Of a DNA stretch of 64,000 bases, positions 4,101 through 51,742 are shown one piece after another. A model generated the notes under the pieces. The model was not told the DNA's origin and searched no databases. It worked only from the letters and a program-made list of their open reading frames with translations. The position numbers were made by a program, and so were the translations under genes. Origin of the DNA: Hydrogenophaga sp. PAMC20947 (GTDB taxonomy: Bacteria > Pseudomonadota > Gammaproteobacteria > Burkholderiales > Burkholderiaceae_C); assembly GCF_004795855.1 (NCBI RefSeq), contig NZ_CP039252.1:1054001-1118000 (forward strand), read 5' to 3'. Position 1 is the first letter of the stretch; every line of letters begins with the position of its first letter.

Positions 4101-4120
4101 TCTGTTCGACAGCGCACAGA
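4101..4120. promoter_or_regulatory. island palindrome (CRP/FNR-geometry operator)
   Basis: TCTGTTCG-ACAG-CGCACAGA is a dyad with seven of eight half-site positions symmetric. It lies between the divergent copB-direction and DUF302-direction genes. The same dyad recurs before most operons of the window. Confidence 0.65.
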
Positions 4121-4304
4121 CTTCGCAGTGGGTACCGGTCAACCTTCACTTCGGGTACCGCGTGAAGCGTGTGCCTCTGGCGCGCAGCTGGTTGGGGCTT
4201 GTACTTTCATGCCCGCAGGGCCACGCACGGCTGATTTCGGAAGATTCGCGGCGCACACCGGGTGGGTTGCTTCTTCTTCTGGTTCCCATATTTCGGAGTA
4301 CTTC

Positions 4305-4736
4305 ATGACCGCTTCCCCTGCCAACCCAGCGACGGCCTCTTACGGATTTAACTGCGAGCTCACCGGCATGGGATTCGACCAAGCCGTCACCCGCGTCACC
4401 GAGGCGCTCAAGGCCGAAGGCTTCGGTGTGCTCACCGAGATCGACGTCAAGGCCACGATGAAGGCCAAGCTTGACCTCGATGTCCGTCCGTATCGGATCC
4501 TTGGCGCGTGCAACCCGCCGCTCGCCCACCGCGCTTTGACCGCCGAGCCCGACATCGGATTGCTGTTGCCCTGCAACGTGGTCGTGCGCGAAGAGACGGA
4601 CGGGCGCCTGGTGGTCGCGTTCATGGATCCGGTGGCCGTGATGCAGATGACCAGCAACGCCGAGGTCGCCGAAGTGGCGCAAGAAGTGCGTGCACGGCTG
4701 CAGCGTGTGAAAGCCGAATTGACGCGTGGTGGATGA
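4305..4736 (+). CDS. DUF302 family protein
   Basis: The 143-residue protein contains a DUF302 domain: [20 protein letters not shown] at the start, then [30 protein letters not shown], and a central [13 protein letters not shown] strand with a conserved Cys. DUF302 proteins are small alpha/beta proteins of unproven function, often found near metal, sulfur or redox genes. The start at 4305 is chosen because CGGAG precedes it at good spacing; a longer frame from 4095 lacks such a signal. It is followed after 74 bases by a cytochrome c, probably in the same transcript. A vestige of the same leader and start codon occurs at 14700-14777. Confidence 0.8.
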
Positions 4737-4810
4737 ATTGAGTGGGCCCAGGCCCGCACCCGCTGCTTGAATCGCACCGAACCCATGTTCGGAAGAACCA
4801 GGAGCCTTGC

Positions 4811-5326
4811 ATGTCGGTTACCCGTATTGCGATCGGCGCACTTTCCGCACTGCTGCTGGTCGTCTCAGCAGCCTGCCAGCCGACCGAACAGCAGAATTCG
4901 ATGCCCGCCTCAGCCAGCGGGCTCGAAGGTCCCGTCGGGAACGGCGCGCGTATCTATTTCACAGGGGCGAGCGAGCGCGGCACCACCGTGACGAACACGG
5001 GATCCGCCAACATGGGCGGCGGGATGATGAGCAGCTTTGGCCAGTTTCTGACTTGCGCGGCATGCCACGGCCCGGAAGGTCGCGGCAGCACGCACCTGAT
5101 GCACATGCGGGTGATGACGGCGCCCGATATCCGCTATGTGGCCTTGAGCACCATGCCGGAAATGAAAGACCGCCAGCGTCCGTACGATCTGGACGACTTC
5201 CGCACCACGGTCGAGCAGGGTCGGCATCCCGACGGCGAAGAGGTCGATGCGGACATGCCGCGCTGGAAGATGAGCGAAGCGGACCTGTCCGACCTGTTTG
5301 CCTTTCTCAAGGCTTTGCCCGAATGA
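4811..5326 (+). CDS. exported monohaem cytochrome c
   Basis: The 171-residue product has an N-terminal export signal (MSVTRIAIGALSALLLVVSA) with a Cys at residue 22, so it may be a lipoprotein, although the lipobox is not ideal. A single haem-binding CAACH lies at residues 82-86 in the context QFLTCAACHGPEGRG. The Met-rich stretches before and after the haem motif (GGGMMSS, HMRVM) and MPRWKM near the end could supply the distal Met ligand. The C-terminal helix SEADLSDLFAFLKALPE is typical of class I cytochromes. It probably acts as a periplasmic electron carrier or as a small subunit of an oxidase or reductase outside the window. GGAG precedes the ATG. Confidence 0.85.
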   Translation: MSVTRIAIGALSALLLVVSAACQPTEQQNSMPASASGLEGPVGNGARIYFTGASERGTTVTNTGSANMGGGMMSSFGQFLTCAACHGPEGRGSTHLMHMRVMTAPDIRYVALSTMPEMKDRQRPYDLDDFRTTVEQGRHPDGEEVDADMPRWKMSEADLSDLFAFLKALPE

Positions 5327-5357
5327 CAGCGCCCACTTGAATCCGCCACCCTGTGAG

Positions 5358-5390
5358 ACTAAAAAAATCCATGATTTGCCATTTTTTAGT
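5358..5390. terminator. bidirectional terminator-like hairpin
   Basis: ACTAAAAAAAT and ATTTTTTAGT form an A/T stem around a 12-base loop between the convergent cytochrome c and phosphatase genes. The T and A runs on both arms fit termination in either direction. Confidence 0.6.
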
Positions 5391-7310: not shown

Positions 7311-9689
7311 TCATGGGGTGGCGTTCCAGCGCCAGTTGCGGATCTCGGGCATGTCCTGCCCATTCGCACGGATGTAGCGCGCATGCTCTTCGAGCTTGAG
7401 TTCGAGCTTTTCTTTCAACCTGGCGCCGGCAGCGCCGGTCTTGGGGAGGCGGTCGATGGCGTCCATCACCAGATGGAAGCGGTCCAGGTCGTTCAACACC
7501 GTCATATCAAAGGGCGTGGTGATCGTGCCTTCTTCCTTGTAACCGCGCACATGAAAGTTGCCATGGTTGGTGCGCCGGTAGGTCAGCCGGTGGATCAGCC
7601 AGGGGTAGGCGTGGAACGCGAAGATGACGGGCTTGTCGCGCGTGAACAGCGCATCGAAAGCTGCATCCGAAAGGCCATGGGGATGCTCACTCTGCGGTTG
7701 CAGCTTCATCAGGTCAACGGTATTGACGACCCGCACACGCAGGTCGGGCAGTTCTTCGCGCAGGATTTTCACGGCGGCCAGCGTCTCCAGCGTGGGCACA
7801 TCGCCACAGCAGGCCATCACCACATCGGGATCGTCTTCGGACGCGCTGGCGGCCAACTCGTTGCCGGCCCAGTCCCAGATGCCGATGCCGGCGGCGCAAT
7901 GTGCCTCGGCCGCGTCCATCGACAGCCACTGCGGCGCCGGGTGCTTGCCGGCGACCACCACGTTCACGTAGTGCCGGCTGCGCAGGCAATGGTCCATCAC
8001 CGACAACAGGCAGTTGGCATCGGGCGGCAGGTAGACCCGCACGACTTCGGCCTTCTTGTTGACCACGTGATCAATGAAACCCGGATCCTGGTGGGTGAAG
8101 CCGTTGTGGTCCTGGCGCCAGACATGCGAGGCCAGCAGGTAGTTCAGCGAGGCAATCTTGGGCCGCCATGGCAGCTCGGCGCTGACCTTCAGCCACTTGG
8201 CATGCTGGTTGAACATCGAATCGACGATGTGGATAAAGGCTTCGTAGCAATTGAACAGGCCGTGCCGTCCGGTGAGCAAGTACCCTTCCAGCCAGCCCTC
8301 GCATTGGTGTTCGCTCAGCATCTCCATCACACGGCCCTCAGGCGCCAGCCACTGGTCGCCTGGTGCGGTGGCCGCGTCCCACTGGCGGTTCGTTGCCTCG
8401 AAGACAGCGGCCAGGCCGTTGGAGATGGTCTCGTCCGGGCCAAAGACACGGAAATTGCGCGCGGCGTCGTTCAGGCGCGCCACGTCACGCAGAAAGGGCC
8501 CGAGCACATGGGTATCACCGATGCCCGGAACGCCCGGTGCAGGCACCTGAGCCGCGTACTCGCGGTAATCGGGCAGATGGAGGTTCTTCAGCAGCAAGCC
8601 GCCGTTGGCGTGGGGATTGGCGCCCATGCGCCGGAGCCCGCTCGGCGCCAAAGCGGCCAGCTCAGGCTTCAGTTCCCCCTGTTCATCGAACAGCTCCTCA
8701 GCCCGGTAGCTGCGCAGCCAGTCTTCCAGCAGCTTCAGGTGGCCGGTGTGATCGGCCGGGTGCAGCGGCACCTGGTGTGAGCGGAAGTTGCCCTCCATGG
8801 GCTCGCCATCGACCTGTTTAGGTCCGGTCCAGCCCTTGGGTGAGTTCAGCACGATCATCGGCCAGCGAGGGCGCGCGGAGCGGCCGTGCTCGCGCGCCTG
8901 GCGCTGGACGCGCTGGATCTCCAGCACCGCCTGATCCATGGCTTCGGCCATCAATGCGTGCATGGGTCCGGGCTCATGCCCTTCCACGAAGATGGGCGTC
9001 CAGCCACAGCCGCGCAGGAACTGCTCCAGTTCCTCGTGCGTGATGCGGGCCAACACCGTCGGGTTGGCGATCTTGTAGCCGTTGAGGTGCAGGATCGGCA
9101 GCACAGCACCGTCGGTGGCCGGGTCCAGGAACTTGTTCGAGTGCCAGGCCGTGGCCAGCGGACCGGTCTCGGCCTCTCCATCGCCCACCACACAGGCCAC
9201 GATCAACTCGGGGTTATCGAACACGGCGCCGAACGAATGGCTCAGCGAGTAGCCCAGTTCGCCCCCTTCGTGGATCGAGCCTGGGCATTCGGGCGAGGCG
9301 TGGCTGGGGATGCCGCCCGGAAACGAGAACTGCCTGAACAATTTTTTCAGCCCGGCCTCGTCGCGGCTGATGTCCGGGTAAACCTCGCTGTAAGTGCCCT
9401 CGAGGTAGGTGTTGGCGACCACCGCCGGGCCGCCGTGACCGGGGCCTGACACGTAGATCATGTCAAGGTCATGGGCCTTGATGACACGGTTCAGGTGCGC
9501 GTAGATGAAATTCTGACCCGGGGTCGTGCCCCAGTGCCCGAGCAGCATGGTCTTCACGTCGGCCAAGGTCAGCGGGCGCTTTAACAATGGGTTGTCCCAC
9601 AGGAAGATCTGGCCCACCGACAAGTAATTGGCGGCGCGCCAATAGGCATCCAACTGTTGGAGCGAGGCGTGATCTCTTTTTTCGGTCAT
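7311..9689 (-). CDS. xfp: phosphoketolase
   Basis: The 792-residue thiamine-diphosphate enzyme cleaves xylulose 5-phosphate (and often fructose 6-phosphate) with phosphate to acetyl phosphate plus glyceraldehyde 3-phosphate or erythrose 4-phosphate. Both family signatures are visible: EGGELGY at 142-148, and the [19 protein letters not shown] region ending at about residue 172. The length is normal. The N-terminal start [20 protein letters not shown] is typical. No good ribosome-binding site precedes the ATG, so translation may be leaderless. It heads an operon with the 68-aa gene, fba and a phosphatase. A strong palindrome lies 33 bases upstream at 9722, and a broken duplicate of its N-terminus is at 13328-13614. 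Confidence 0.95.
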
Positions 9690-9721: not shown

Positions 9722-9741
9722 TCTGTTCGCTGCCGCACGTT
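9722..9741. promoter_or_regulatory. island palindrome upstream of xfp
   Basis: TCTGTTCG-CTGC-CGCACGTT has half-sites matching the consensus at five of six core positions each. It lies 33 bases before the phosphoketolase start. The rest of the 276-base gap (9690-9965) holds no convincing gene; a short hairpin GACGCT/AGCGTC at 9931-9950 could end the upstream reductase transcript. Confidence 0.62.
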
Positions 9742-13301: not shown

Positions 13302-13317
13302 CGTGCGCTGTCGCACA
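13302..13317. promoter_or_regulatory. island palindrome upstream of the hflKC operon
   Basis: CGTGCG-CTGT-CGCACA is symmetric over GTGCG/CGCAC and lies 48 bases before the first gene of the operon. Confidence 0.62.
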
Positions 13318-13327: not shown

Positions 13328-13614
13328 TCAGACCGCCGCCCTGACCACCGCCGGTCCACCGTGCCCGGACCCCGACACGCAGATCATGTCCAGGTCGTGG
13401 GCCTTGATGGCGCGGTTCAGGGGGGCACAAATGGAATCCTGACCCGGGTTTGTTCCCCAGGGGCCGAGCAGCATGGTCTTCACGTTGGCCAAGGTCAGTG
13501 GACGATGAGCAGCGGGTTGTCCCACAGGAAAATCTGGCCGGCCGACAAGTAATTGGCGGCGCGCCAGCAGGCATCCATGTGTTGAAGCGAAGCGGGGGTC
13601 TGTGCATCGGTCAT
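13328..13614 (-). pseudogene. truncated, frameshifted copy of the phosphoketolase N-terminus
   Basis: The frame starting at 13614 reads [20 protein letters not shown], then [12 protein letters not shown], parallel to phosphoketolase residues 1-36. One missing base then moves the match into another frame, which reads [17 protein letters not shown] and [19 protein letters not shown]. The match stops at the equivalent of residue 91 (13343), followed by an unrelated tail and a TGA at 13328. It covers about 11% of the enzyme. It carries its own degraded palindrome upstream, so promoter and gene start were duplicated together. Confidence 0.88.
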
Positions 13615-13659
13615 GGGTTGACGCCAAGTCCTGCGAGGTGCCGTGTCCGTGCCCGTGTC

Positions 13660-13675
13660 CGCGCGCTGCCGCACC
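13660..13675. promoter_or_regulatory. degraded island palindrome before the xfp fragment
   Basis: CGCGCG-CTGC-CGCACC sits 46 bases upstream of the phosphoketolase fragment. The right half is good and the left half keeps four of six bases. The spacer CTGC equals that of the site before the intact xfp. Confidence 0.45.
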
Positions 13676-13731
13676 TTTCGAAAATGGTGCGAGTGACCCC
13701 AAGGCGCAGGCACTGGAGGCCGGTCGTTGGG

Positions 13732-14472: not shown

Positions 14473-14492
14473 TCTGTGCGTCAGCGCACACC
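14473..14492. promoter_or_regulatory. island palindrome, perfect core
   Basis: TCTGTGCG-TCAG-CGCACACC has a fully symmetric TGTGCG/CGCACA core. It lies 106-108 bases upstream of the Spy-like gene and about 355 bases upstream of tal. Confidence 0.68.
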
Positions 14493-20617: not shown

Positions 20618-21166
20618 TCAGACTTTGTCCGTGGGCATGCCTTCCAGCAGGTCGGCCAGCTCGTCCGCATGTTCCTCTTCCACCGCCAGGATCTGTTTGA
20701 GCAGGTCGCTGGTGGTCGGGTCCTGATCGCCGAGGTAGCGGATCATGTCGCGGTAGCTGTCGATGGCAATGCGTTCGGCCACGAGGTTCTCGCGAATCAT
20801 GTCGGACAGCGTCTTGCCAGGCAGGTATTCGGCGTGGCTGCGCTCGCTCAGGCTGTCAGGCGAAAAATCGGGCTCGCCGCCAAGCTGCACAATGCGCGCG
20901 GCCAGCAGGTCGGCGTGGCCCTGTTCTTCGTTGGAGTGCACCAGGAACTCGGCGCCCACGCTCTGGCCGTGGATGCCACGCGCCATGAAATGGTGGCGGC
21001 GGTAGCGCAGCACGCAGACGATTTCGGTGGCCAGCGCTTCGTTGAGCATCTTCAAGACCTTGGGGCGGTCAGCGCTGTAGCCGGCGGTGACGGCACCTTG
21101 TTCGATGTGTTTGCGCGCCTGGCTGCGCAGCGTTTTGACAGGGGTGAGTTTGTGTGAGGAGGCCAT
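20618..21166 (-). CDS. ferritin-like diiron protein (bacterioferritin/Dps-like)
   Basis: The 182-residue four-helix protein has the carboxylate/His iron-ligand pattern of ferritins: LATEIVCVLRYRRHHFMARG, HSNEEQGHADLLAARI, VAERIAIDSYRDMI and AVEEEHADELADLL. Two E-x-x-H-type pairs (EEQGH, EEEH) support a ferroxidase-like centre. It is annotated in relatives as a bacterioferritin or Dps-like protein and would store iron or protect DNA from peroxide. AAGGAC precedes the ATG. It ends the SDR-BON-ferritin operon, 44 bases after the BON gene. Confidence 0.85.
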   Translation of the reverse strand: MASSHKLTPVKTLRSQARKHIEQGAVTAGYSADRPKVLKMLNEALATEIVCVLRYRRHHFMARGIHGQSVGAEFLVHSNEEQGHADLLAARIVQLGGEPDFSPDSLSERSHAEYLPGKTLSDMIRENLVAERIAIDSYRDMIRYLGDQDPTTSDLLKQILAVEEEHADELADLLEGMPTDKV

Positions 21167-21210
21167 GGGAAAGTCCTTAAAATTGAAATGTGGTGTATTG
21201 GCTTATGGGC

Positions 21211-21795
21211 TTACTGCTTGATCATCAGATCGTTCTTCACGCTGCTGGCGCCCTCGGCGGCGCTGGCCAACTGGCCGGCCAGGTCGATCTGGCTCTGGTT
21301 GTTGACGAAGCCTGTGAGCTGCACTTCGCCCTTGAATGTGAGCACGCTGATATCAAAGCTCTTGATCGCTGCATCGGCCAACAAGGCGGTCTTGACGCGG
21401 GTTGTCACGGCCGCATCGTCGATCTTGGTGCCCACGGTGCTCGAACTTCCTTTGAGGGTGACGTCGTTCTCGACGTTCACGACGCCTTGCACAGCGCTGG
21501 TCAGCGCCATGGCCTGGTCAATCTGGGCCTGGTTGTCGACAAAGCCGCTGAGTTGCACGACGCCTTTGCGGGTTTCGACCTGCAATTCAAAGCTTTTCAC
21601 GAGGTCGTCGGCGAGCAGCGCCGATTTGACGGATGAGGTGACCACGGCGTCGTCCACCTGGGTGCCGAGCGTCATGGGCGGCGCTGGGGTGGTCTCGGCC
21701 TGGGGTTCGGGGGTTTTGCTGCAGGCGCCGACGGCGGCCAGGGCGGCGAAACTGGTGGCAAGGAAGGCAATGCGGATGGGGTGGCGAGATGTCAT
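21211..21795 (-). CDS. BON-domain lipoprotein (OsmY-like)
   Basis: The 194-residue product starts MTSRHPIRIAFLATSFAALA, followed by a lipobox VGAC, so it is probably lipid-anchored. Two BON domains follow: DDAVVTSSVKSALLADDLVK with GVVQLSGFVDNQAQIDQA, and DDAAVTTRVKTALLADAAIK with GEVQLTGFVNNQSQIDLA. BON domains bind membranes or ligands, and OsmY-type proteins respond to envelope and osmotic stress. The start at 21795 is chosen for GGAG at good spacing over an ATG four codons upstream. It is the middle gene of the SDR-BON-ferritin operon. Confidence 0.88.
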   Translation of the reverse strand: MTSRHPIRIAFLATSFAALAAVGACSKTPEPQAETTPAPPMTLGTQVDDAVVTSSVKSALLADDLVKSFELQVETRKGVVQLSGFVDNQAQIDQAMALTSAVQGVVNVENDVTLKGSSSTVGTKIDDAAVTTRVKTALLADAAIKSFDISVLTFKGEVQLTGFVNNQSQIDLAGQLASAAEGASSVKNDLMIKQ

Positions 21796-21824
21796 GAAAG
21801 GCTCCAAAGAAAAAGAAAAGGGGG

Positions 21825-22574
21825 TCAGCGGGCGAGGTAGCCGCCATCAACCGGGTAGTAACCGCCGGTGACGAAGGAGGCCCGGGAAGAGGCGAGCCAG
21901 ACCACCAGCTCGGCCACTTCTTCTGGCAGGCCAAGGCGGCCGATGGGGTGGGCCGCGATCAACGCAGCCTTCAGGTTCGGGTCTTCTTCCAGCGCGCTGA
22001 CCATGGGCGTGTGAATGAAGCCGGGGCCGATTGCGTTGATGCGCAGGCCTTGGCCGCTGTAGGCGATGGCTGCAGACTGTGTGAGGCCGATCACGCCGTG
22101 TTTGGCCGCGCTGTAGGCTGGCCCGGTTGCCATGCCCACCATGCCCAGAATGGAAGACGTGTTGACGATGGCGCCCCCGCCACCCTTCAACATCGCGGGG
22201 ATCTGCGCCTTCATGCCGAAGAACACTCCCGAGAGGTTGATGTTGATCACCTGTGCCCAGGCGTCCAGCGGGTAGTCGGCCAGCAACGCCATGGCACCAC
22301 CGATGCCAGCGTTGTTGCAGGCAACGTCGAGTTGACCGTAGTGCGCCATGGCCTGATCCACCAGCGCCTGGGCGTCTTCGGCCTTGCCCACGTCCGACGC
22401 CGCAAACAGGGCTTCCGCACCGAGGGCACGCACCTGCTTGACCGTTTCCTGGCCCGCATGGGCGTCGATGTCGGACAAGATGAGCCGAGCCCCTTCACGC
22501 GCCGCGACGAGGGCGATGGCCCGCCCGATACCGGAGGCGGCACCGGTGACGAGCACGACTTTGTTGTTCAGCAT
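21825..22574 (-). CDS. short-chain dehydrogenase/reductase
   Basis: The 249-residue classical SDR has the cofactor motif TGAASGIG, NNAG (CNNAGIGGAMALL), the Ser of NTSSILG and the catalytic YSAAK. It ends with SFVTGGYYPVDGGYLAR, the usual SDR C-terminus. Relatives act on sugars, acyl groups or alcohols, and the substrate cannot be named. It is the first gene of the operon with the BON lipoprotein and the ferritin-like protein, with a half-conserved palindrome 116 bases upstream. It is only distantly similar to the acetoin-reductase-like SDR at 9966. Confidence 0.85.
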   Translation of the reverse strand: MLNNKVVLVTGAASGIGRAIALVAAREGARLILSDIDAHAGQETVKQVRALGAEALFAASDVGKAEDAQALVDQAMAHYGQLDVACNNAGIGGAMALLADYPLDAWAQVININLSGVFFGMKAQIPAMLKGGGGAIVNTSSILGMVGMATGPAYSAAKHGVIGLTQSAAIAYSGQGLRINAIGPGFIHTPMVSALEEDPNLKAALIAAHPIGRLGLPEEVAELVVWLASSRASFVTGGYYPVDGGYLAR

Positions 22575-22689: not shown

Positions 22690-22709
22690 TCTGTGCGCTG
22701 CCAGACAAA
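22690..22709. promoter_or_regulatory. island palindrome, one half degraded
   Basis: TCTGTGCG-CTGC-CAGACAAA has a perfect left half and a right half with four of six core bases. It lies 116 bases upstream of the SDR-BON-ferritin operon, at the edge of the copA remnant. Confidence 0.48.
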
Positions 22710-23410: not shown

Positions 23411-23430
23411 TTCGTGCGCCAGCGAACAGA
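23411..23430. promoter_or_regulatory. island palindrome upstream of the N-ATPase operon
   Basis: TTCGTGCG-CCAG-CGAACAGA has five of six core bases in each half. It ends 53 bases before atpD. The 253-base gap 23231-23483 otherwise shows no gene. Confidence 0.62.
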
Positions 23431-23471: not shown

Positions 23472-25390
<1,919 letters not shown>

Positions 25391-25398
<8 letters not shown>

Positions 25399-25801
25399 AA
25401 AAACACCCAAATCCCCGCAAAGGGCGGAGGACATCGAATTGACCGAAAAGGTGGCCAGCAAGGCCGCGCGCAAGATCAAGGCGCGTCTGGATGGTGCGCC
25501 CGGCGTGTGGTTTGGCCTGGGCATGATGGGGTTGGTGGGCTGGTCGGTGGCTGTGCCCACATTGCTCGGTGCGGCCCTTGGCCTGTGGCTGGACAGCCGT
25601 CCCACCGGCACCCATTCCTGGACGCTGGCCTTGCTGATGGCCGGGCTCACGCTCGGTTGCCTGAACGCCTGGCATTGGGTGTCCAAGGAGGACCGCAACA
25701 TGCACGAAGACAACGCTGACGTCAACGCCAAGGCGACGGACAAAGGCCACATAAGTCGCAGCAACCATGATGGTGGAGACCCGGGAGATGACCATGCTTG
25801 A
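25391..25801 (+). CDS. atpQ: N-ATPase accessory membrane protein AtpQ
   Basis: The 136-residue AtpZ/AtpI-like protein has a basic N-terminus (KVASKAARKIKARL) and two membrane helices (GLGMMGLVGWSVAVPTLLGA and WTLALLMAGLTLGCLNAW). A polar His/Asp-rich tail follows. AtpQ is one of the two extra genes typical of N-ATPase operons and may help c-ring assembly or ion transport; the role is not proven. It overlaps atpC and atpR. Confidence 0.82.
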
Positions 25802-26102
25802 TGTGTTGTGGCCTCTCATGGCCGGTTTCGTTTTCGGCGGGGTATTCTTCGGCGGGTTGTGGTGGACGGTGCGCCATGCGGCCGATTTCCGCTGGCCAGG
25901 GCCTTCGATGCTGGCCAGTGTGCTGTTGCGCATGGCCACCGTGCTGGGCGGTTTGTATCTTGTGGGCAATGGCGAGTGGACACGCATGTTGCTGTATTTG
26001 CTGGGCTTGCTGATGGCGCGCCTGGCCGTCACCTGGGCCACGCGCTTGCCGCCGCCGGTTTCGCCATCGAACGCATCAGGGGAGGCCCGTCATGCGCCTT
26101 AG
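25794..26102 (+). CDS. atpR: N-ATPase accessory membrane protein AtpR
   Basis: The 102-residue protein has three membrane helices and the motif FGGVFFGGLWWTVRHA that marks AtpR. AtpR is specific to N-ATPase operons and is thought to stabilise the c subunit or the membrane part. The start MLDVLWPLMAGF at 25794 is chosen for the GGGAG before it; ATGs at 25767 and 25788 are possible. It overlaps atpQ by 8 bases and atpB by 11. Confidence 0.85.
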   Translation: MLDVLWPLMAGFVFGGVFFGGLWWTVRHAADFRWPGPSMLASVLLRMATVLGGLYLVGNGEWTRMLLYLLGLLMARLAVTWATRLPPPVSPSNASGEARHAP

Positions 26103-26778
26103 CCCCGACGAGTGGATCTTCTGGCAGAGCGGCTTCGTGAAGCTCAACGCCACCATCGTCTTCACCTGGGTCTTGATAGTGGGCATGGTGCTCGGATCTG
26201 CCTTGATCACGCGCAAGCTGTCGCACGGAGCCACCATCTCGCGCTGGCAAAGTCTGCTGGAGATCGTGACCACCGCGATCCAGACACAGATTCAGGAGGT
26301 GGGTCTGGAGAAGCCGCGCAAGTACCTGCCGTTTCTGGGCACGCTGTTCCTTTTTGTGGCCATGTCCAGCCTGTGCACCGTGATCCCGGGCTTCGAGCCA
26401 CCCACGGGGTCGCTTTCTACCACCGTGGCACTGGCCGCTTGTGTGTTCGTGGCCGTGCCGGCCTTCGGCATCGCCGAACAGGGCGTGGGCCGTTACCTCA
26501 AAACCTACATCGAGCCCACCGTTGTGATGCTGCCGTTCAACCTCATCAGCGAGCTTTCGCGCACGCTGGCCCTGGCCGTGCGCCTGTTCGGCAACATGAT
26601 GAGCGGAGCCATGATCGTGGGCATCTTGCTGACCATCACGCCGTTTGTTTTCCCCATCGTGATGACGCTGCTCGGTCTGCTGACCGGCATGGTGCAGGCC
26701 TACATTTTCAGCATCCTCGCGGCGGTTTACATCGCCGCGGCCACCCGTGTGCGACCCGCTGCGGCCAAGCCCGCCTGA
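26092..26778 (+). CDS. atpB: N-type ATPase subunit a
   Basis: The 228-residue integral membrane subunit forms the ion half-channels. The essential Arg lies in the penultimate helices (LALAVRLFGNMMSGAMIVGI), preceded by LPFNLISELSRT. Further helices include IVFTWVLIVGMVLGSALITR and LLGLLTGMVQAYIFSILAAV. It is shorter than typical AtpB (about 270-290 residues), as usual for N-type enzymes. It overlaps atpR by 11 bases, and atpE follows after 50 bases. Confidence 0.93.
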   Translation: MRLSPDEWIFWQSGFVKLNATIVFTWVLIVGMVLGSALITRKLSHGATISRWQSLLEIVTTAIQTQIQEVGLEKPRKYLPFLGTLFLFVAMSSLCTVIPGFEPPTGSLSTTVALAACVFVAVPAFGIAEQGVGRYLKTYIEPTVVMLPFNLISELSRTLALAVRLFGNMMSGAMIVGILLTITPFVFPIVMTLLGLLTGMVQAYIFSILAAVYIAAATRVRPAAAKPA

Positions 26779-26828
26779 GCGGAGCTTTTCTCAACGGCTC
26801 CAACCCCACAACCAACCCGAGAATCCCC

Positions 26829-27119
26829 ATGGACAGTCTGACCCTCATCGCCGTTGCCTCCATCGTCATCGCCGGCATCACCACCGGCTTTGGCACCATG
26901 GGCCCGGCCCTGGCCGAGGGTCGCGCTGTGGCCCAGGCGCTCACCTCGTTGGCGCAGCAGCCCGACGCGTCGGCCACCATCACGCGCACGCTGTTCGTCG
27001 GCCTGGCGATGATCGAGTCCACCGCGATCTACTGTTTCGTGGTGTCGATGATCCTGATCTTCGCCAATCCGTTCTGGAACGCGGCGCTCGAGCAGGCCGC
27101 CAAGCTGGCGGGCAACTGA
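26829..27119 (+). CDS. atpE: N-type ATPase subunit c
   Basis: The 96-residue hairpin of two membrane helices forms the rotor ring. Helix 1 has TMGPALAEGRAVAQAL with a carboxylate at Glu30, where the Na+-binding Ilyobacter ring has Gln. Helix 2 has MIESTAIYCF with Glu63-Ser64-Thr65 and Tyr68, the same ligand set as Na+-binding c subunits. N-ATPases were predicted to be Na+ pumps on this basis, but a second carboxylate may alter specificity, so the coupling ion is left open. It is followed after two bases by atpF. Confidence 0.93.
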   Translation: MDSLTLIAVASIVIAGITTGFGTMGPALAEGRAVAQALTSLAQQPDASATITRTLFVGLAMIESTAIYCFVVSMILIFANPFWNAALEQAAKLAGN

Positions 27120-27121
27120 GC

Positions 27122-27892
27122 ATGTTGATCGACTGGTTCACCGTGGGGGCGCAGGCGCTGAACTTCATCATCCTGGCCTGGTTGATGAAGCGCTTTCTGT
27201 ACAAGCCCATCCTCAACGCCATCGACGCACGCGAAGAGCGCATCGCCACCGAGCTCGCTTCGGCGGCACGCAAAGAAACCGAGGCCCAGCAACAGCGCGA
27301 CGAGTTTCAGAAGAAGAACGATGACCTTCACCAGCAGCGTGCGGCGCTGCTGAAGCAGGCCCGCGCCGACGCAGCCGAAGAACGCCAGAAGCTGATGGGC
27401 GCTGCGCGCGAGGCCGCCGATGCGCTCGCAGCCCAGCGCCAGGCGTCGCTGGTTGGCGAAGCAAAGAAGCTGGGCCAGGCTTTGCGTCAGCGCACCCAGA
27501 CCGAGGTGTTTGCCATCGCGCGCCGAGCGCTCACCGACTTGGCTGGCGCCAGTCTGGAAGCCAGCGCCTGCGCCGTCTTCATCACCCGCCTGCATGACCT
27601 CGAAGGCGAGCCCAAGGCCGCGCTCGCGGCGGCTATGGGGGATTCCGAAAGCGGGGTTGTCGTGCGCAGTGCCTTCGAGTTGCCCAGTGATCAGCGCCTC
27701 GCCATTCAAAACGCCATCGCCGACAGCTTGGGCGTCAAGCCCGAGTTGCGCTTTGAAGTTGAGACCGCCCTCGTGGGCGGCATCGAGCTGGTGGCCCAGG
27801 GCCAGAAGTTGGCGTGGACCATCAGCGACTACCTCACCTCGCTGGAGCGCGGGGTGAGGGAGTTGCTGCAGGCACCCGCGGTGGCACCATGA
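27122..27892 (+). CDS. atpF: N-type ATPase subunit b with delta-like C-terminus
   Basis: The 256-residue protein has an N-terminal membrane helix ([20 protein letters not shown]) and a long charged helix (residues 40-150). The C-terminal region contains [20 protein letters not shown] and [17 protein letters not shown]. That end resembles the C-terminal domain of subunit delta (OSCP), and no separate atpH gene exists in the operon. So this subunit appears to combine the peripheral stalk and the delta link, as in other N-ATPases. Its stop overlaps atpA (ATGA). Confidence 0.9.
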
Positions 27893-29517
27893 TGGCCGCC
27901 ACGGTCGACAACTTGCAGGCCGGGCTGGACGGCGCCTTCGCGGCGTTGGCCGCTGGCCGCGAGGCCTGGGCGCCCCAACTGGTGGCCCGCGAAGTGGGCA
28001 CGGTGCTGTCTGTGGCCACCGGCGTGGCCTATGTCGGTGGGCTGCCGGGCGTGGCCTACGCGGAAATGGTCCGCTTTCCCGGCGGTTTGCTGGGCCTGGC
28101 TTTCGATGTGGACGAAACGCAGGTTGGCGTGGTGCTGCTGGGAGACCATGCGCGCTTGCAGGCGGGTGCCGAGGTGGTGCGCGAAGGCCGTGTGATGGAT
28201 GTGGCCGTGGGCGATGGACTGCTGGGGCGCGTGATCGACCCCTTGGGCAGACCACTCGACGGGCAGGCCACGGTGGCCAGCGAAGAACGGTTGCCCATCG
28301 AACGGCCAGCACCGGCCATCATGGACCGCGCGCCGGTCACGGTGCCGCTGCAAACGGGGTTGAAGGTGATTGATGCGCTCATCCCGATCGGTCGCGGTCA
28401 GCGCGAACTCATCCTGGGCGACCGGCAGACCGGCAAGACGTCCATTGCCATCGATGCGATCGTCAACCAGCGCGGCCGCGACGTGGTGTGCGTGTACTGC
28501 GCCATCGGCCAGCGCGCCTCCGCCGTGGCCAAGGTGGTGGCGCGCCTGCGGGAGCAGGGTGCACTCGGCTACACGGTGGTGGTCGTGGCCGACGGCAACG
28601 ACGCACCTGGTCTGTCCTACATCGCGCCCTACGCGGCCACGAGCATCGCCGAAAGCTTCATGGCAGAGGGGCGCGACGTGCTGATCGTTTACGACGACCT
28701 TACCCAACACGCCCGCTCGTACCGGGAGATCTCGCTGTTGCTGGGTCGTCCGCCGGGGCGCGAAGCATTCCCGGGTGACATCTTCTACATCCACTCGCGC
28801 CTGCTGGAGCGTGCCACCCATTTGAGCGAGCAGCTCGGCGGCGGCTCGCTGACCGCTTTGCCTATCATCGAAACCGAGGCCGAAGACATCTCGGCCTACA
28901 TCCCCACCAACCTGATCTCCATCACCGACGGGCAGATTTACCTTTCGCCCACGCTGTTCCAACTGGGCGTGCTGCCGGCGGTGGACGTGGGCCGATCGGT
29001 TTCCAGGGTGGGCGGCAAAGCCCAGCTGCCGGCCTTTCGGGCTGTGGCTGGCGACCTCAAGCTGGCCTACGCGCAGTTCGAGGAGCTCGAAACCTTCGCC
29101 CGCTTTGGTGCCCACATGGATGACGACACCCAGGCGTCGATCACCCACGGACAACGCATCCGCGCCTGCCTGAAGCAGCCGGAGCTGTCCCCCTTGTCGG
29201 TGCCGGCGCAGTTGGCCACTGTGCTGGCGCTGACCGACGGTCTGTTTGATGCGGTTCCGATGGACCGCATGGTTGAGGCCGAGCAGGCCGTGGTTGACGC
29301 CGCAGGGCGCGACATGCCTGAAGCGCTCGAGCAGCGTTTGCTGGCTTCCGACAAGCTGACCGACGAAGACCGCGCGGCCATGGTGAGCCTGGCGCGTACC
29401 GCCATAGCGGCGTTTCTGCCGGAACCGAAAGAAGGCGAAGAGGGCGAAAAGGGCGAAGAGGGCGAAAAGGGGCCCGCTGGGCCTGCGACAAAAGCGCCGC
29501 CGCCTGAGCGCGGCTGA
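27889..29517 (+). CDS. atpA: N-type ATPase subunit alpha
   Basis: The 542-residue nucleotide-binding subunit has [15 protein letters not shown], the P-loop GDRQTGKT (177-184), [17 protein letters not shown] and [22 protein letters not shown]. The start at 27889 is set by the ATGA overlap with atpF; a second ATG follows directly. The C-terminus ends in a low-complexity acidic/Lys/Gly tail ([13 protein letters not shown], then Pro/Ala) absent from housekeeping AtpA. Internal repeats in that tail may vary between strains. Confidence 0.94.
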
Positions 29518-29534
29518 GCGCAACGCCCACCGCC

Positions 29535-30434
29535 ATGGCAGACAGCACAGCCCACCTTCGTCGAAAGATCGGCAGCGCATCCGACTTGCACGCGGTCGTG
29601 CGCGCCATGAAGGCCCAGGCGGCGGCCAGCGTGGGGCAGTACGCGCAATCGGTGGCCGCGTTGGGCGACTACGCGCGCACCGTCGAACTCGGCCTGGGCG
29701 CCTGCTTTCGACAAGAGCCGCTGATGCCACGGCCACACGCCGCCGCGCCTGCCGAGCGGCGCATCCGCGCCGTGGTTTTTGGCTCTGACCAAGGCCTGGT
29801 CGGCCGGTTCAACGACACGCTCGTCGAACACGCGCTGCCCACCCTGTCGGCCCAAGCTGCGACGCCCGCAATCACCCAGGTCTGGGCGGTGGGCTCCCGC
29901 ATGCAGTCCAGCCTGGCCGACGCAGACATCCCCATGCAGGGCAGTTTTACCGTGCCCGCCACCGTCAAGGGCATCACCCGCCTGGTGACCGACATCCTGG
30001 TCGCTGTGATCGACACGGCCCCGGCCTCGCAGGAGCCTGAAAACCCGCCTGAGCTGCACCTGTTTTACAACCGGCCCACAGGCGGCGCGGGCTATTCGCC
30101 GGTGAGCCAGCGGCTGCTGCCGCTGGACGATGCATGGCGCCTTGAACTGGCCCAGCGCCCCTGGCCAACCGCCATGCTTCCCGAGCGTCTGGGCAGCGCT
30201 GCCGAGACGCTGCGTGCGCTGATCAACGAGTTTGTCTTCGTGTCGATTTACCGGGCCAGCGCCGAGTCGCTGGCCAGCGAGAACGCGAGCCGCCTGGCAG
30301 CCATGGACCGGGCCGACCGAAACATCGACAAGATGCTGCTGGAGCTGCAAGAGCGCTTCCACCGCTTGCGGCAAAGCAAGATCGATGAGGAGCTCTCCGA
30401 TGTGATCGCCGGATTCAAGGCCTTGAGCGAGTAG
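29535..30434 (+). CDS. atpG: N-type ATPase subunit gamma
   Basis: The 299-residue central-stalk subunit begins with LRRKIGSASDLHAVVRAMKA, the usual N-terminal helix, has the Rossmann-like core (VVFGSDQGLVGRFNDTLVEH), and ends with the paired helix containing NIDKMLLELQERFHRLRQSK and IDEELSDVIAGFKAL. It is divergent from housekeeping gamma, as expected for the N-type. It closes the atpDCQRBEFAG operon. A fumarase pseudogene follows after 58 bases on the same strand. Confidence 0.9.
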   Translation: MADSTAHLRRKIGSASDLHAVVRAMKAQAAASVGQYAQSVAALGDYARTVELGLGACFRQEPLMPRPHAAAPAERRIRAVVFGSDQGLVGRFNDTLVEHALPTLSAQAATPAITQVWAVGSRMQSSLADADIPMQGSFTVPATVKGITRLVTDILVAVIDTAPASQEPENPPELHLFYNRPTGGAGYSPVSQRLLPLDDAWRLELAQRPWPTAMLPERLGSAAETLRALINEFVFVSIYRASAESLASENASRLAAMDRADRNIDKMLLELQERFHRLRQSKIDEELSDVIAGFKALSE

Positions 30435-41027: not shown

Positions 41028-41047
41028 TCTGTGCGGCAGCGCACGTT
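41028..41047. promoter_or_regulatory. island palindrome upstream of the hemerythrin pseudogene
   Basis: TCTGTGCG-GCAG-CGCACGTT has a perfect left half and five of six core bases on the right. It lies 75 bases before the former hemerythrin start. The remaining 41048-41212 shows no gene. Confidence 0.63.
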
Positions 41048-41212: not shown

Positions 41213-41932
41213 CTAAGCAGCCAGTTTGTCGGGCAGCAATCGGTCGTATTCGGTCTTCACCACGGCGTAACATTCGCAAACTCGTTTCTCCAGTGCGGGA
41301 CGGTCGACCACGGTGATGTGGCCTCGCGTGTATTTGATGAGCCCGAGTTTTTGCAGCTTGAGCGCCGCTTCGGTCACGCCTTCGCGGCGCACGCCCAGCA
41401 TGTTGGCGATCAGTTCCTGCGTCATCACAAGTTCGTTGCTGCTCAGGCGGTCCAGGCTCAGCAGCAGCCAGCGGCACAGCTGCTGGTCGAGCGAATGGTG
41501 GCGGTTGCACACGGCGGTCTGGGCCATCTGGGTGATGAGCGCCTGGGTGTAGCGCAGCAACAGGTGCAGCACCGGCCCGGAGCGGCTGAATTCTTCCTTG
41601 ATGTCGGCCGCGCGCAGGCGGTAGCCCTTGCCCGCGCTTTGCACCACCGCACGGCTCGGCGTGGTTTCGCCGCCCATGAAGAGCGCAATGCCCACCAGGC
41701 CTTCGTTGCCCACGACCGCAATCTCGGCCGATGCGCCGTCTTCCATCACATACAACAGCGAAATGATGGCGTTGATGGGGAAGTACACATGGGTCATCTT
41801 GCCGCCCGATTCGTACAGCACCTGGCCCAGCGGCAGATCCACCGCCTCCATCAATGGCCCAATGCGCAGCCACGCGGGCGCGGGCATCGCGGCCAGCAAT
41901 TGGTTGACCGATTGGTCGTGTGTGGTTCCCAT
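41213..41932 (-). CDS. Crp/Fnr family transcriptional regulator
   Basis: The 239-residue protein has an N-terminal cyclic-nucleotide-binding-like beta barrel (LPLGQVLYESGGKMTHVYFP, NEGLVGIALFMGG), a long dimer helix, and a winged HTH (LVMTQELIANMLGVRREGVT, then EAALKLQKLGLI). No FNR-type N-terminal Cys cluster is present, so it is unlikely to hold an oxygen-sensing Fe-S centre. Its ligand is unknown. The recognition helix reads RREGVTE; the Arg-Glu pair that contacts TGTG in CRP is kept, while CRP's flanking Ser and distal Arg are replaced by Arg and Glu. The start at 41932 is preferred to an in-frame extension to 42031 that would run through the palindrome. It probably controls the island. 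Confidence 0.88.
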   Translation of the reverse strand: MGTTHDQSVNQLLAAMPAPAWLRIGPLMEAVDLPLGQVLYESGGKMTHVYFPINAIISLLYVMEDGASAEIAVVGNEGLVGIALFMGGETTPSRAVVQSAGKGYRLRAADIKEEFSRSGPVLHLLLRYTQALITQMAQTAVCNRHHSLDQQLCRWLLLSLDRLSSNELVMTQELIANMLGVRREGVTEAALKLQKLGLIKYTRGHITVVDRPALEKRVCECYAVVKTEYDRLLPDKLAA

Positions 41933-42014: not shown

Positions 42015-42034
42015 TCTGTGCGGAAACGCACATG
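42015..42034. promoter_or_regulatory. island palindrome upstream of the Crp/Fnr gene, perfect core
   Basis: TCTGTGCG-GAAA-CGCACATG lies 83 bases before the regulator's start and is symmetric over TGTGCG/CGCACA. It suggests autoregulation. Confidence 0.66.
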
Positions 42035-42060: not shown

Positions 42061-42080
42061 TTTGTACGGCACTGCACAGA
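42061..42080. promoter_or_regulatory. island palindrome upstream of the hydroxylase gene
   Basis: TTTGTACG-GCAC-TGCACAGA keeps five of six core bases per half and lies 68 bases before the plus-strand hydroxylase start. It is the second dyad of this divergent region. Confidence 0.52.
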
Positions 42081-42147: not shown

Positions 42148-42738
42148 ATGGCATTGTTTTCCATCGAACACAGCACCCTTGCTTACCGCGCCGACTTCGT
42201 TTTCTACGGCGCCGCCGTGCTTGGGCTGGCTGCCTGGTTGGCCCTGCGCGGACCGACGGGCATGGCCGCAGAGCTTGCTGCGCTGGTCGGCCTGGGTTTT
42301 TTGGCCTGGAGCCCGATCGAATACGCTTTGCACCGCTTTGTGTTGCACGGCCTGCCGCCCTTCAAAGGCTGGCACCTCGAGCACCACCAGCGCCCGACCG
42401 CGCTGATTTGTGCACCCACGCTGCTCAGCGCCACTTTGATCGGCCTTGTGGTGTGGCTGCCGGCGCTGTGTTTGCTGGGCGAATGGCGCGGCTACGCGCT
42501 CACGCTGGGCGTGTTGATCGGCTACCTGGGTTATGCCATGGTCCACCACGCCTTGCACCACACGAACCTGAAGATTGGGTGGGTGCAGCGCCGCAAGCAC
42601 TGGCACGCCAAACACCACCACTTGTTGCAACCTTGTTGTTTTGGGGTGACCAGCGGTTTTTGGGACCATGTGTTGCGCACAGCCGGGCCCAAGGACCACG
42701 CCCGTGTGCACATTCCGGTGGTTCGCCGCCAGGGCTGA
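42148..42738 (+). CDS. fatty acid hydroxylase/sterol desaturase family membrane protein
   Basis: The 196-residue protein has several membrane helices and the His clusters that bind the diiron centre in this superfamily: EYALHRFVLHG, WHLEHHQRP, VHHALHHTN and HWHAKHHHLLQP. The length is typical of the small bacterial group. Members hydroxylate or desaturate lipids using oxygen; the substrate here is unknown. Its place opposite the Crp/Fnr gene and beside the glucan synthase suggests envelope remodelling. It converges with the glucan synthase, leaving a 19-base gap. Confidence 0.87.
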   Translation: MALFSIEHSTLAYRADFVFYGAAVLGLAAWLALRGPTGMAAELAALVGLGFLAWSPIEYALHRFVLHGLPPFKGWHLEHHQRPTALICAPTLLSATLIGLVVWLPALCLLGEWRGYALTLGVLIGYLGYAMVHHALHHTNLKIGWVQRRKHWHAKHHHLLQPCCFGVTSGFWDHVLRTAGPKDHARVHIPVVRRQG

Positions 42739-45700: not shown

Positions 45701-48700
45701 GACCGCTTCCGGTCGCGCCGCGTTCGCCTGGGGCAGGGTCAGCACCAGCGCGGTGGTGAGGGCGTGCAGCGCGGGCAGGTAGTCGGTGCGCGGGCGCTGC
45801 GGCAAAGTGGGGATGCCCGCCAGTGTGGCCGACATCACCGACGAGCGCTCCACGTAGCTGGGCAGGTTGTACTTGTCGATCACCGCCAGCAAGGTGACGT
45901 CGTCGTCGCTGGCGGCAGTGGCGAAGGTGACGGTGGCCTGCGCGCCCGGCGCGATCCGCAGGCGCACGCCGAGCACGGCCACCGGGTCCAGACCGGTGTC
46001 GAGCACGCAGGGCGCTTGCGGTACCGGGTCCAACTGCGCCAGCGGCTGGCCTGGCGTGTGCAGCCGGCCCAGCCATTTCGCGCGGTCGGTCTGGCAGCGC
46101 AGCCCCAACACTTCGCCTTCGACGCTGGCCACAAAATGCGCCGCCTGCAGCGCGCTCTCGGTTTGCAGGCGGGGCGTGCGCACGCAACGCAGCGCCTGCT
46201 GCTCGGGCAGCCAGTCGGTTTTCACAAACAAATTGGAAAACGCGGGGTGGGCTTCGTCGGCGGCGGGGCTGGCCAAGGTCAGGTCCAGCGCCGAGATCAG
46301 CTCCAGTTCGATCGGCTCGCTGCTGCGGTTGACGAGAAGTACCTTGCGCAGCTCGATGTCATCTTCCGGGCTGACCCAAACCGTGGTCATCACGCGCAGC
46401 TCAGGCCAGTTGGCCTCGAAACACACGCGGTCGGTGTGGAAGTGGCATTGGTAGCGGGCGTCGGGATCGGGTGCCGGATGGCGCGTGACCGACACCGGTG
46501 CACCGTTGCCGCCGAGGCGCAGGTAGACAAAAGCACCGCTGGCATCGCGCAGCGCGTCGTCGCGCCAGCGGGTGATGCCGGTCTGGTCCCAGCGGCTCCA
46601 GCCTGCACCATTGGAGCGCAGCGTGACGCTGTAGCGCCCGTTGGACAGCAAGTGGGTGGGCTCCAGCGCCTGGGCGCCCGGCGCGAGTGTGCGGAAGTGG
46701 TCGGGGGTTCGCCGTGGCAGGGTCTGCAATGGCCCGGGCATCGTGGCTTGCAACGTCGGCAGCTCCCGCGGCGCGCGCTCGTGCAGCAGCGAACACACCG
46801 CTTCGATGCGCGGGTGCGCCATGCCCCAGCGCTGGGCCACACCTGCAAACAACACATTGGTCAGCGCCACGATGCTCATGCCCTGGTGGTGCGCCATGAA
46901 GGTGTTGACTGGGGTGAAAGGCTCGCCATGGGACTGGCGAGACTGCGTGAAGTCCAGCGCCTCGATGAAGCCGTAACGCCCACGCGCGTTCAGCGCACTC
47001 AAGGCGCGCAGGTTGTCGCAGGCCAGGGCTGTGTCTACCTGGGTGGCAAGCGCGGTGGCGTAGGGTGCGATCACCCGCTCGGCCTCCGGCGTGCGTCGCA
47101 GGGCCAGCCGTGGCACGCCCTGCGGCGCGTACTGGTAGGCCAGCGTGTGGTCTTGGCCGGCGTAGGCGCACTCCGAAATGCCCCATGGCATGGCGGTGCC
47201 ACGCACGAAGGCGATCTGCTCCTGCAGCGCCGATTGGCCAGCCTCGGTCAGGGCGCTGTCGCGCGGCTGCGCGACCACCAGGGTGGGCATCAGGTACTCG
47301 AACATGGACCCCGACCACGAGCGCAAAACCGCGCTGCGCCCGCGGGCGAAAAACGGTCGGCCGAGCGCCGCCCAGTGGCGCACCGGTACGTCGCCCTTGG
47401 CGATGGCGAGCAGGCTGGTGGTGCGCGATTCAGAGGCCAGCAGGTCGTAGAAGCTGGTGTCGAGCTGCTGCTCTTCGAGCCGGTAGCCGATGTGCAGCAG
47501 GTGGCGCTTGGGGTGGTAGAGGAATTGGAAGTCCGCGTCCCAGGCCAAGTTCTCCATTTGGACGGCCAACTCATTGAGGCGCCGGGTGGCGCGCTCGCAG
47601 CTGCCCGCACCGCGCACTGCAGCGTCCTGGCCCGCCGAGAGAAGCGTGGCCAGGTGGTCCGCCAGCAGCCAGCGCAGTTCGTCCTTGGGTGTGGTGGGGT
47701 GGTTGACGATGGCCGGGTTGCGCGCATGTTGCAGGCCCTCCAGCTCGGCCTGTGCTTGCAGCAGCAAAGCGTGGAAGGCGGCGCAGGCGGCGGCCTCGCA
47801 CGGTTCGGGTGGCACGGCTTCGAGCATGCGCCCGATGGCGGTCTGGTGCAGCGGCTGGTGCAGAGCGGACTGCAGCAGCGGCAGGTGGGGCTGCAGGCGC
47901 TGGCGCGAACGGCCAATGGCGCGCAGGCTCGCGGCCGCTTCGTGTGGATCGTGCGCCAGTTCGCGGCAGGCCTGGGCCACCGTGAGCAGGTGCGCACTGA
48001 GGTTGCCGCTGTCCACGGTGGACACATAGCGCGGCAGCAGCGCCTGCAAGGTTTCGGTGTCGTACCAGTTCAGGAAATGGCCGCGGTGGCGCTCCATTTG
48101 TTGCAAAGTGGCGACGGTGGCTTCCAGACGTGCGAGCAGATCCTGTGTGCCGATCCAGCCGAACTGGCGCGCGCAGGCGGTGCTCAGAAGATAGAGCCCG
48201 ATGTTGGTGGGAGAGGTGCGGTGCGCCACCATCTCGTAAGGTGCGATCTGCAGGTTGTCGGGTGGCAGGTGGTGGTTTTGCTCGTTCACGCAGCGCTCGA
48301 AGAGGCGCCAGGTGTCGCGCGCCACGCCGTCGAGCAGCTCGCGGTCGGCGGGTCGCAGCGCCGGACGGCGGCTGGGCCAGGGCGTGTTGGTCACCCACAC
48401 CAGCAGCGGCGCGAGCGCCCACATCACGAGCACCGAGAGCGCCAGCGCACTCGGCGCGGGGATGAACAGCCACAGGCCGCCCAGCCACAACAGCGCGGCG
48501 ATCGGCTCGGTGCGGTGGCGGCGCTGGGTGGCGAGCAGGCCGGTGGCCAGGCCCGCCTGGGCAGCTTCGGCGGTGGTCCATTCGAGCAGGTGCAGCCGGC
48601 TCACCGCGAGCCGGTGCAGTGTGCGCAGCATGGCGTCGAGCGACATCAGGGCTTGCTGCTGCAGCAGCGCGAGGTTCCAGAGTCCGCCGCCGATGGCGCG

Positions 48701-51349: not shown

Positions 51350-51352
51350 GCT

Positions 51353-51604
51353 TTACAGCAACAGCATTGAGCCACCGACCAGCAGCAAGATCACCAGCAC
51401 CGAAGTGACCACCCGCCCGGCCACCATGTCGTGCAGATCGTCGGCGCCGGTCTGCAGAGTCTGCAGCGGGCCGCGCAGCGCACCACACTGGCTAAGGTGA
51501 TCGCCCAGCGCCGAGCGCTCCAGAGGAGAGATTTCCGCCGTGTGGCCGAAGGAAGAGGTGTCCCAACTTGGCGTGTGGGAAGAAATTTTGGACATGGGCG
51601 GCAT
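51353..51604 (-). CDS. 83-aa membrane-anchored protein upstream of ndvB
   Basis: The product has a soluble N-terminus (MPPMSKISSHTPSWDTSSFG), an amphipathic middle and a C-terminal membrane helix (VVTSVLVILLLVGGSMLLL). Its stop lies 3 bases before the ndvB start, so the two are almost certainly cotranscribed. The tail-anchored layout suggests a small partner of the glucan synthase; I do not recognise the family. An alternative start is the ATG at the fourth codon. A palindrome (51673) lies 69 bases upstream. Confidence 0.65.
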   Translation of the reverse strand: MPPMSKISSHTPSWDTSSFGHTAEISPLERSALGDHLSQCGALRGPLQTLQTGADDLHDMVAGRVVTSVLVILLLVGGSMLLL

Positions 51605-51672
51605 CGTCTTTCTGGGCAGTTGGAAGGGGAGCGCTATGGCGTTGCCTTGTTTGTAGTGCCACAGGTGCTGTG

Positions 51673-51692
51673 TGTCTGTGCGGTGACGAACA
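51673..51692. promoter_or_regulatory. island palindrome for the ndvB direction
   Basis: TCTGTGCG-GTGA-CGAACACT has a perfect left half and five of six core bases on the right. It is 69 bases upstream of the small gene that leads ndvB. Confidence 0.58.
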
Positions 51693-51722
51693 CTGGGGTG
51701 CGGGTTGGGGGAACTGGAATGG

Positions 51723-51742
51723 GGTGTGCGTCAGCGCACAGA
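51723..51742. promoter_or_regulatory. island palindrome for the glycine-zipper gene, perfect core
   Basis: GGTGTGCG-TCAG-CGCACAGA is symmetric over TGTGCG-N4-CGCACA and lies 53 bases before the start at 51795. Confidence 0.66.

Follow-up and report, generated by a model that had tools for sequence, protein, structure and literature searches.

We analysed a window of 64,000 nucleotides (positions 1,054,001-1,118,000 of the single-contig 4.85-Mb genome of Hydrogenophaga sp. PAMC20947, here G000) in which a 16-bp palindrome, TGTKCG-N4-CGMACA, recurs in front of operons. These palindromes are very likely the operators of a little-studied Crp/Fnr subfamily represented by the protein P0001, which is encoded in the window, and would define an autoregulated regulon under class II activation whose operator is distinct. 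Four observations lead to this reading: the clustering of the sites in intergenic DNA, their presence upstream of the regulator's orthologues, a -10 box at a fixed distance that places them at -41.5, and a change of one operator base where a Glu of the recognition helix is replaced by Ser or Pro. All of these can be read directly in the DNA, and they bear out the proposal of an initial annotation that a single regulon with its own operator code, at the spacing of CRP and FNR sites, occupies this region.

Sites in the window

The eleven palindromes that the initial annotation had described as well formed are all present, lying 0-4 bases from where it had placed them. For scoring, a 24-bp matrix was built from 43 distinct sites of other genomes, none from Hydrogenophaga sp. 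PAMC20947, and sites of at least 16 bits were called strong. The matrix is independent of place and genome, but not of the pattern, because its training sites were chosen with the pattern of the initial annotation. The eleven sites score 17.4-27.1 bits and are the only ones in the window to reach 16 bits; four weaker sites that had been proposed at 371, 4035, 10814 and 13660 failed (-10.6, -7.7, -7.9 and 7.2 bits). Only strict matches are meaningful, because the loose pattern with three mismatches matched the window 52 times, fewer than the 75.4 matches expected from shuffles, and loose matching was dropped as useless. The predicted operators are listed below, with +29 denoting the hexamer 29 bp from the site centre.

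4103..4118, predicted operator TGTTCGACAGCGCACA; 27.1 bits; YANNNT at +29 on both sides
9724..9739, predicted operator ahead of the four-gene phosphoketolase operon (9689 down to 5444); 19.7 bits; without YANNNT at +29
13302..13317, predicted operator before a run of genes (13164 down to 9966) encoding a small protein, two Band 7 (HflKC-like) proteins and an SDR protein; 22.1 bits; -10 CACCAT at +29
14475..14490, predicted operator before the Spy-like (LTXXQ) gene (13879-14367, minus strand); 21.6 bits; -10 TAGGGT at +29 towards that gene
22692..22707, predicted operator of hybrid form (TGTGCG-N4-CAGACA) before the SDR-BON-ferritin operon, which runs from 22574 down to 20618; 17.6 bits; -10 TACAGT at +29
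23413..23428, predicted operator before the alternate F1F0 (N-)ATPase operon, 64 bp from centre to start; 22.1 bits; +29 hexamer TCCAAT, which is not YANNNT
41030..41045, predicted operator before a hemerythrin-like gene that appears broken (running from about 40950 down to 40350); 17.4 bits; without YANNNT at +29
42017..42032, predicted operator before the crp gene, 92 bp from centre to start codon; 20.2 bits; without YANNNT at +29
42063..42078, predicted operator before the fatty-acid-hydroxylase gene (42148-42738); 19.7 bits; -10 CAAGAT at +29
51677..51692, predicted operator before a small gene (51353-51595) and a gene for a protein of 2863 amino acids (aa) (42758-51349, minus strand); 21.7 bits; +29 hexamer TACAAA, an incomplete YANNNT
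51725..51740, predicted operator before the glycine-zipper protein gene (51933-52424); 21.1 bits; -10 TACTGT at +29

The earlier claim that a site precedes nearly every operon held for 14 of the 20 called transcription units starting between 2.9 and 52.5 kb, which have a site within 450 bp upstream (one shared site being counted for both divergent units). It failed for the other six, all of which start between 30.6 and 39.3 kb. Genes and coding bases were called with a simple codon model, and the 20 units include fragments of genes or small calls that are doubtful. Site 4103 lies 195 bp from DUF302/cytochrome c genes and, on its other side, 419 bp from a DsbA-like gene, and site 14475 also lies 364 bp before a transaldolase-transketolase-PGM-PPK2 operon. 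The link to hemerythrin stood in part: site 41030 does precede the hemerythrin-like gene, but this gene (40350-40950, minus strand) appears to be broken across several frames, and its name comes from reading the pieces, not from a hidden Markov model (HMM).

Two clusters in the genome

The exact palindrome TGTGCG-N4-CGCACA occurs six times in the whole genome, three times in the window and three times at 1,270,871-1,290,702. A pattern scan of the whole genome for TGTKCG-N4-CGMACA without mismatch gave 14 matches in 4.85 Mb, against one for the pattern read backwards; of these, 13 fall within 1.048-1.292 Mb, and the last (537,279; 17.5 bits) lies inside a 748-aa open frame. With up to one mismatch, the 400 kb around the window hold 33 sites, 27 of them intergenic. 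The matrix scan covered 800 kb. Between 1.0 and 1.4 Mb, where 84% of the bases are called coding, 30 of the 31 strong sites are intergenic, and the sole "coding" one, at 1,294,695, sits in a doubtful 68-aa call. Nineteen of these sites fall in 1.04-1.18 Mb and 12 in 1.268-1.298 Mb, with none in the remaining 230 kb of that stretch, while a control of 400 kb (2.0-2.2 and 3.4-3.6 Mb) gave a single strong site (2,002,403; 16.5 bits). At 14 bits, 200 column-permuted matrices never gave more than three intergenic matches, against 32 with the real matrix.

A similar distribution was seen in related DNA. The 80 named loci encoding P0001 relatives hold 210 intergenic sites and 13 coding ones, with 79.5% of the bases coding; the sequences in this and the following counts are kin, not independent, and the counts are inflated by relatedness. 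All 12 strong sites of genome G070 lie at 122-160 kb of the 80-180 kb scanned (one of them, from locus L051, belongs to the training set), and weaker clustering was found in G174, with six sites in 160 kb around two crp genes and none in a 140-kb control. The sites are thus intergenic, clustered and rare elsewhere, rather than equally common in coding DNA or scattered without promoter bias. The island-wide regulon of the initial annotation holds in that the sites cluster at promoters; it was drawn too small in that they are not confined to the window and form two clusters that contain four paralogous regulator genes.

The Crp/Fnr regulators of the two clusters

41213..41932, minus strand, P0001, a regulator of the Crp/Fnr family with 239 aa and the recognition helix RREGVTE; it is a candidate activator for the island
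1273922-1278347 (plus strand) and 1292101-1294634 (minus strand) of G000, two pairs of PAS hybrid kinase and REC-protein genes by subfamily crp genes

P0001 combines a Crp-type helix-turn-helix (HTH) with a weak N-terminal domain resembling those that bind cyclic nucleotides, which places it in the Crp/Fnr superfamily, and it has the Crp/Fnr fold; its nearest named relatives are Hydrogenophaga proteins. The genome holds four subfamily genes (E up to 0.01), all inside the two site clusters: P0001 itself in the window and copies of 92%, 57% and 41% in the second cluster. The recognition helix of P0001 is identical to that of the 92% copy, and the 41% copy has Val in place of the helix Glu. None of the four proteins had an NCBIfam match at 1e-5. 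In the PDB the only sequence match at E up to 0.001 was a Crp/Fnr protein of Eubacterium rectale, 3dv8 (2.6e-7), within the HTH. Aligned there, H-R-E-V-I-T-R of 3dv8 and R-R-E-G-V-T-E of P0001 have the R-E pair in common, whereas the third contact residue is Arg in 3dv8 and Glu in P0001.

Sites upstream of the regulator's orthologues

For 75 of the related loci enough upstream DNA was available. A site with at most one mismatch lies within 400 bp upstream of the P0001 orthologue in 44 of them, against 0/75 for the reversed control, so the comparison of orthologous promoters that the initial annotation had proposed favours its reading for the crp gene. The 43 distinct sites among them are those from which the matrix was built. 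All 44 belong to the 64 orthologues with the helix Glu, and P0001 is probably autoregulated. Eleven of the 80 loci have Ser or Pro in place of this Glu.

Geometry of the promoters

Sites from the 80 loci and the genome of the window were oriented towards the gene that they precede. Of the 122 pairs of site and gene whose orientation was unique, 40 have TANNNT at a distance of 29 bp from the centre of the site, and the next-best position has 4; the background is a mean of 0.95 per position, and the highest count at any single position in 500 shuffles was 7. The relaxed form YANNNT is found at +29 for 15 of 24 sites in the genome of the window (six of the eleven in the window) and for 96 of 184 elsewhere. 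Taking the hexamer to occupy -12 to -7, the site centre falls at -41.5, which is the class II activator position of CRP and FNR; the predicted operators have this position by reference to the -10 hexamer and not to mapped 5' ends. In spacers with two sites, 42063 faces the hydroxylase gene and 51725 the glycine-zipper gene, and their partners 42017 and 51677 face the opposite way, with near matches to a -10 (GATAGT and TACAAA).

A helix residue and operator base 4

Loci with Ser or Pro seemed at first simply to have lost the site (0/11 against 44/64; p 1.7e-5), but this was set aside when a matrix made neutral at base 4 revealed an altered one. In these loci it found 31 intergenic sites and one coding site, in which base 4 of the half-site is A 40 times, C 21 times, G once and T never. 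The same matrix found 252 intergenic and 19 coding sites in Glu loci, with G 293, T 119, A 51 and C 41. Counted over distinct 24-mers, the ratio of G/T to A/C at base 4 is 1:57 with Ser or Pro and 409:91 with Glu (Fisher p 5e-36, relatedness ignored), and the shift is seen with Ser and with Pro alike. The altered sites keep YANNNT at +29 in 16 of 31 cases, and the Pro types carry a site in 2/4 of their own upstream regions.

The substituted Glu occupies what we take to be the position of E181 in E. coli CRP. CRP E181 contacts a base amino group. By analogy, Glu may favour G or T since the C or A on the opposite strand offers an amino group; for A or C the partner base is T or G, and these present carbonyls. 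The system would then be a natural experiment in protein-DNA recognition, with one residue and one base changing together in keeping with the contact described for CRP E181.

Alternative explanations

We consider it unlikely that the palindromes, while real operators of the subfamily, belong mainly to another paralogue (the 57%, the 92% or the Val-type 41% copy of the second cluster) and that P0001 is only a target itself. Three of the four subfamily genes do lie in the second cluster, Val-type paralogues have their own, often asymmetric sites, and Glu- and Val-type genes stand in tandem in 31 of 79 loci. The sites in front of the Glu-type orthologues and the base-4 change that accompanies the change of Glu to Ser or Pro argue against it, as do the identical helices of P0001 and the 92% copy, because of which both would be expected to bind.

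Ordinary CRP or FNR sites that drifted towards GC in a GC-rich genome would have the same spacing as the CRP consensus TGTGA-N6-TCACA quoted in a passage of PMC5449483, and would share the class II position. Yet when matrix bases 5 and 6 were made neutral, the intergenic half-sites of Glu loci still read C in 387/460 and G in 421/460 (84% and 92%), and with at most one mismatch neither a CRP-type TGTGA-N6-TCACA nor an FNR-type TTGAT-N4-ATCAA was found in any of the 75 orthologue upstream regions. Since the sites also cluster with the four subfamily genes and their base 4 tracks a residue of the subfamily, we regard this explanation as very improbable. That the palindromes are no operators at all (terminator stems, repeat elements or chance in GC-rich spacers) fits their nature as short GC-rich inverted repeats in intergenic DNA, but is hardly credible given the fixed -10 at +29, their presence upstream of orthologues, the outward-facing sites of two-site spacers, each with a -10 or near -10 at +29, and the result with permuted matrices.

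The operators of an autoregulated P0001-type activator thus remain the preferred reading, and several observations weigh against it. Twenty of the 64 Glu-type orthologues have no close upstream site; membership in an operon was tried as the reason and rejected, as only 1/20 follows a gene within 60 bp (in two others, L063 and L073, a REC gene lies about 105 bp ahead). YANNNT at +29 is missing, with either direction tested, from 9/24 sites in the genome itself and 88/184 elsewhere; in the window it is missing from 5/11, including those before phosphoketolase, the N-ATPase and crp, and a -10 there is also missing at 537,279 and 2,002,403, the two strong sites that lie beyond the clusters. Phosphoketolase orthologues are mostly without a site. 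The Ser and Pro proteins come from three genera only (Paraburkholderia, Cupriavidus and Trinickia), and the Ser types' own upstream regions carry a site in 0/9 cases. Finally, Val-type paralogues, which have no Glu, still have upstream sites bearing TGTGCG, and because of this cross-regulation blurs which protein binds what.

Target genes and their conservation

7311..9689, minus strand, phosphoketolase (Pfam XFP_N, XFP, XFP_C)
20618..22574, minus strand, operon of ferritin-like, BON and SDR genes
23484..30434, plus strand, alternate F1F0 (N-)ATPase operon of 9 called genes (alpha and beta subunits by HMM: TIGR03305, TIGR03324)
42148..42738, plus strand, membrane protein of the fatty acid hydroxylase family
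51933..52424, plus strand, glycine-zipper (Rick_17kDa_Anti) protein

In a sample of 250 genomes of the family, 103 encode a P0001 relative (E up to 1e-20). Genomes with the protein have a mean of 3.80 sites and those without it 2.06 (1.23 and 0.97 for the reversed control). The site count separates genomes only partly, because TGTTCG-N4-CGAACA also arises without the protein; G127, G088 and G231 have no protein match at E 1e-20, yet they have 10, 8 and 8 site matches.

The comparison of orthologous promoters gave a divided answer for the targets. Near other crp genes a site precedes the hydroxylase gene in 4/5 cases, the ferritin-like gene in 3/3 and the glycine-zipper gene in 2/2, which favours conservation; other targets were mixed (BON 6/16, OmpA-like 5/10, transglutaminase 4/10, CsbD 2/8). 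Phosphoketolase relatives occur in 18 of the 250 genomes, that of the window included, and only three of the 18 show a strong site in the 1.5 kb upstream: G000, G109, where it stands at the same place as window site 9724, and G070, where it stands about 900 bp upstream. For G205 only a C-terminal piece of the phosphoketolase was available. The target list varies between lineages.

As for other features of the window, the 2863-aa protein, which the initial annotation took for a glucan synthase, had no NCBIfam match at 1e-5. Positions 13328-13713 (minus strand) hold a truncated N-terminal piece, in two frames, that resembles a second phosphoketolase, and 22735-23130 (minus strand) a C-terminal part of a P-type ATPase of the copper type (NCBIfam). 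A class II fumarase gene (30609-32017, plus strand) and a Pyr_redox gene (37392-38746, minus strand) are each called in two pieces, through decay or assembly error. The part of the island without sites encodes a CheB-CheR-PAS fusion and, after it, a PAS hybrid histidine kinase (32266-37295, plus strand), and the only tRNA gene found in the window is a tRNA-Asn (59439-59514, minus strand).

A model for the regulon

In the model that we propose, a dimer of the subfamily would bind TCTGTKCG-N4-CGMACAGA centred at -41.5, overlapping the would-be -35 box, and would activate transcription by the class II mechanism, the -10 box (YANNNT) lying 29 bp downstream of the site centre. The regulator would also control its own gene. 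The Glu of its helix (R-R-E-G-V-T-E) would read base 4 of the half-site, which is G or T with Glu and A or C with Ser or Pro, and the regulon would comprise genes for stress, envelope and energy functions in two clusters, grouped around the four crp paralogues. Binding, activation, autoregulation in the cell and stress as the trigger are what we infer from the sequence. The model predicts that such genes, here those for phosphoketolase, the N-ATPase and ferritin, are switched on jointly in Hydrogenophaga and its relatives, and it would assign an operator, a promoter geometry and a target set to a Crp/Fnr subfamily that is widespread and has a single, distant match in the PDB.

The tandem paralogues with Val for Glu often have the asymmetric site TGTGCG-N4-CAGACA. 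Intergenic DNA has 16 cases of a TGTCTG half beside a perfect half and coding DNA two, and no symmetric TGTCTG form was found in the same half-site count. The genome of the window has two asymmetric sites (window 22692 and G000 1270614), and others occur in L049, L061, L074, L075, L077, L078, L083, L084, L094, L096, L097, L114 and L117, several of them before a Val-type paralogue.

Cys142 and His146 are present in 143/143 members of the subfamily, and Cys219 and Cys221, a C-terminal Cys-x-Cys, in 140/143 each; this conservation suggests a candidate sensing site. In the second cluster one site is followed by genes for a PAS hybrid kinase, a REC protein and the 57% Crp in one run, and a second kinase-REC pair adjoins the 92% copy. 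Relatives of the second kinase and its REC protein are also found together in L050, L063, L073 and L092. In a wider and speculative scheme, which we consider rather unlikely, the subfamily's own base code (Glu for G/T, Ser or Pro for A/C) might be joined by Glu/Val heterodimers on asymmetric operators and by redox or metal sensing through Cys142-His146 and Cys-x-Cys, fed by the PAS hybrid kinases and REC proteins.

Comparison with known systems

Our literature searches turned up no description of a TGTKCG-N4-CGMACA operator or of the P0001 subfamily. Passages of PMC6127331 and PMC3759415 describe the lxa locus of Burkholderia cenocepacia, whose 50 genes are co-induced at low oxygen. As in the island, its genes are clustered, they include one for a BON-domain protein, and a Crp-family regulator is discussed for it there, namely BCAM0049, which is Anr/FixK-like and whose number lies outside the locus (BCAM0275-0323). 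The lxa locus includes six universal stress proteins; no Usp family was found among 60 Pfam-scanned proteins, which are a part of the genes of our two clusters.

P0001 differs from FNR, ANR and FixK in that its first Cys is Cys142, and therefore it has no N-terminal [4Fe-4S] cluster of the FNR type. The consensus of FNR is TTGAT-N4-ATCAA, and sites of this type were absent from the 75 upstream regions, as noted above. With E. coli CRP the P0001 system shares a Crp-like HTH, R-E at the first two contacts, a 16-bp palindrome of the same spacing and a centre at -41.5, the class II geometry of CRP. The contact residues of CRP include Arg at the third position; P0001 has Glu there, and its predicted operator reads TGTKCG, not TGTGA, with G or T at base 4.

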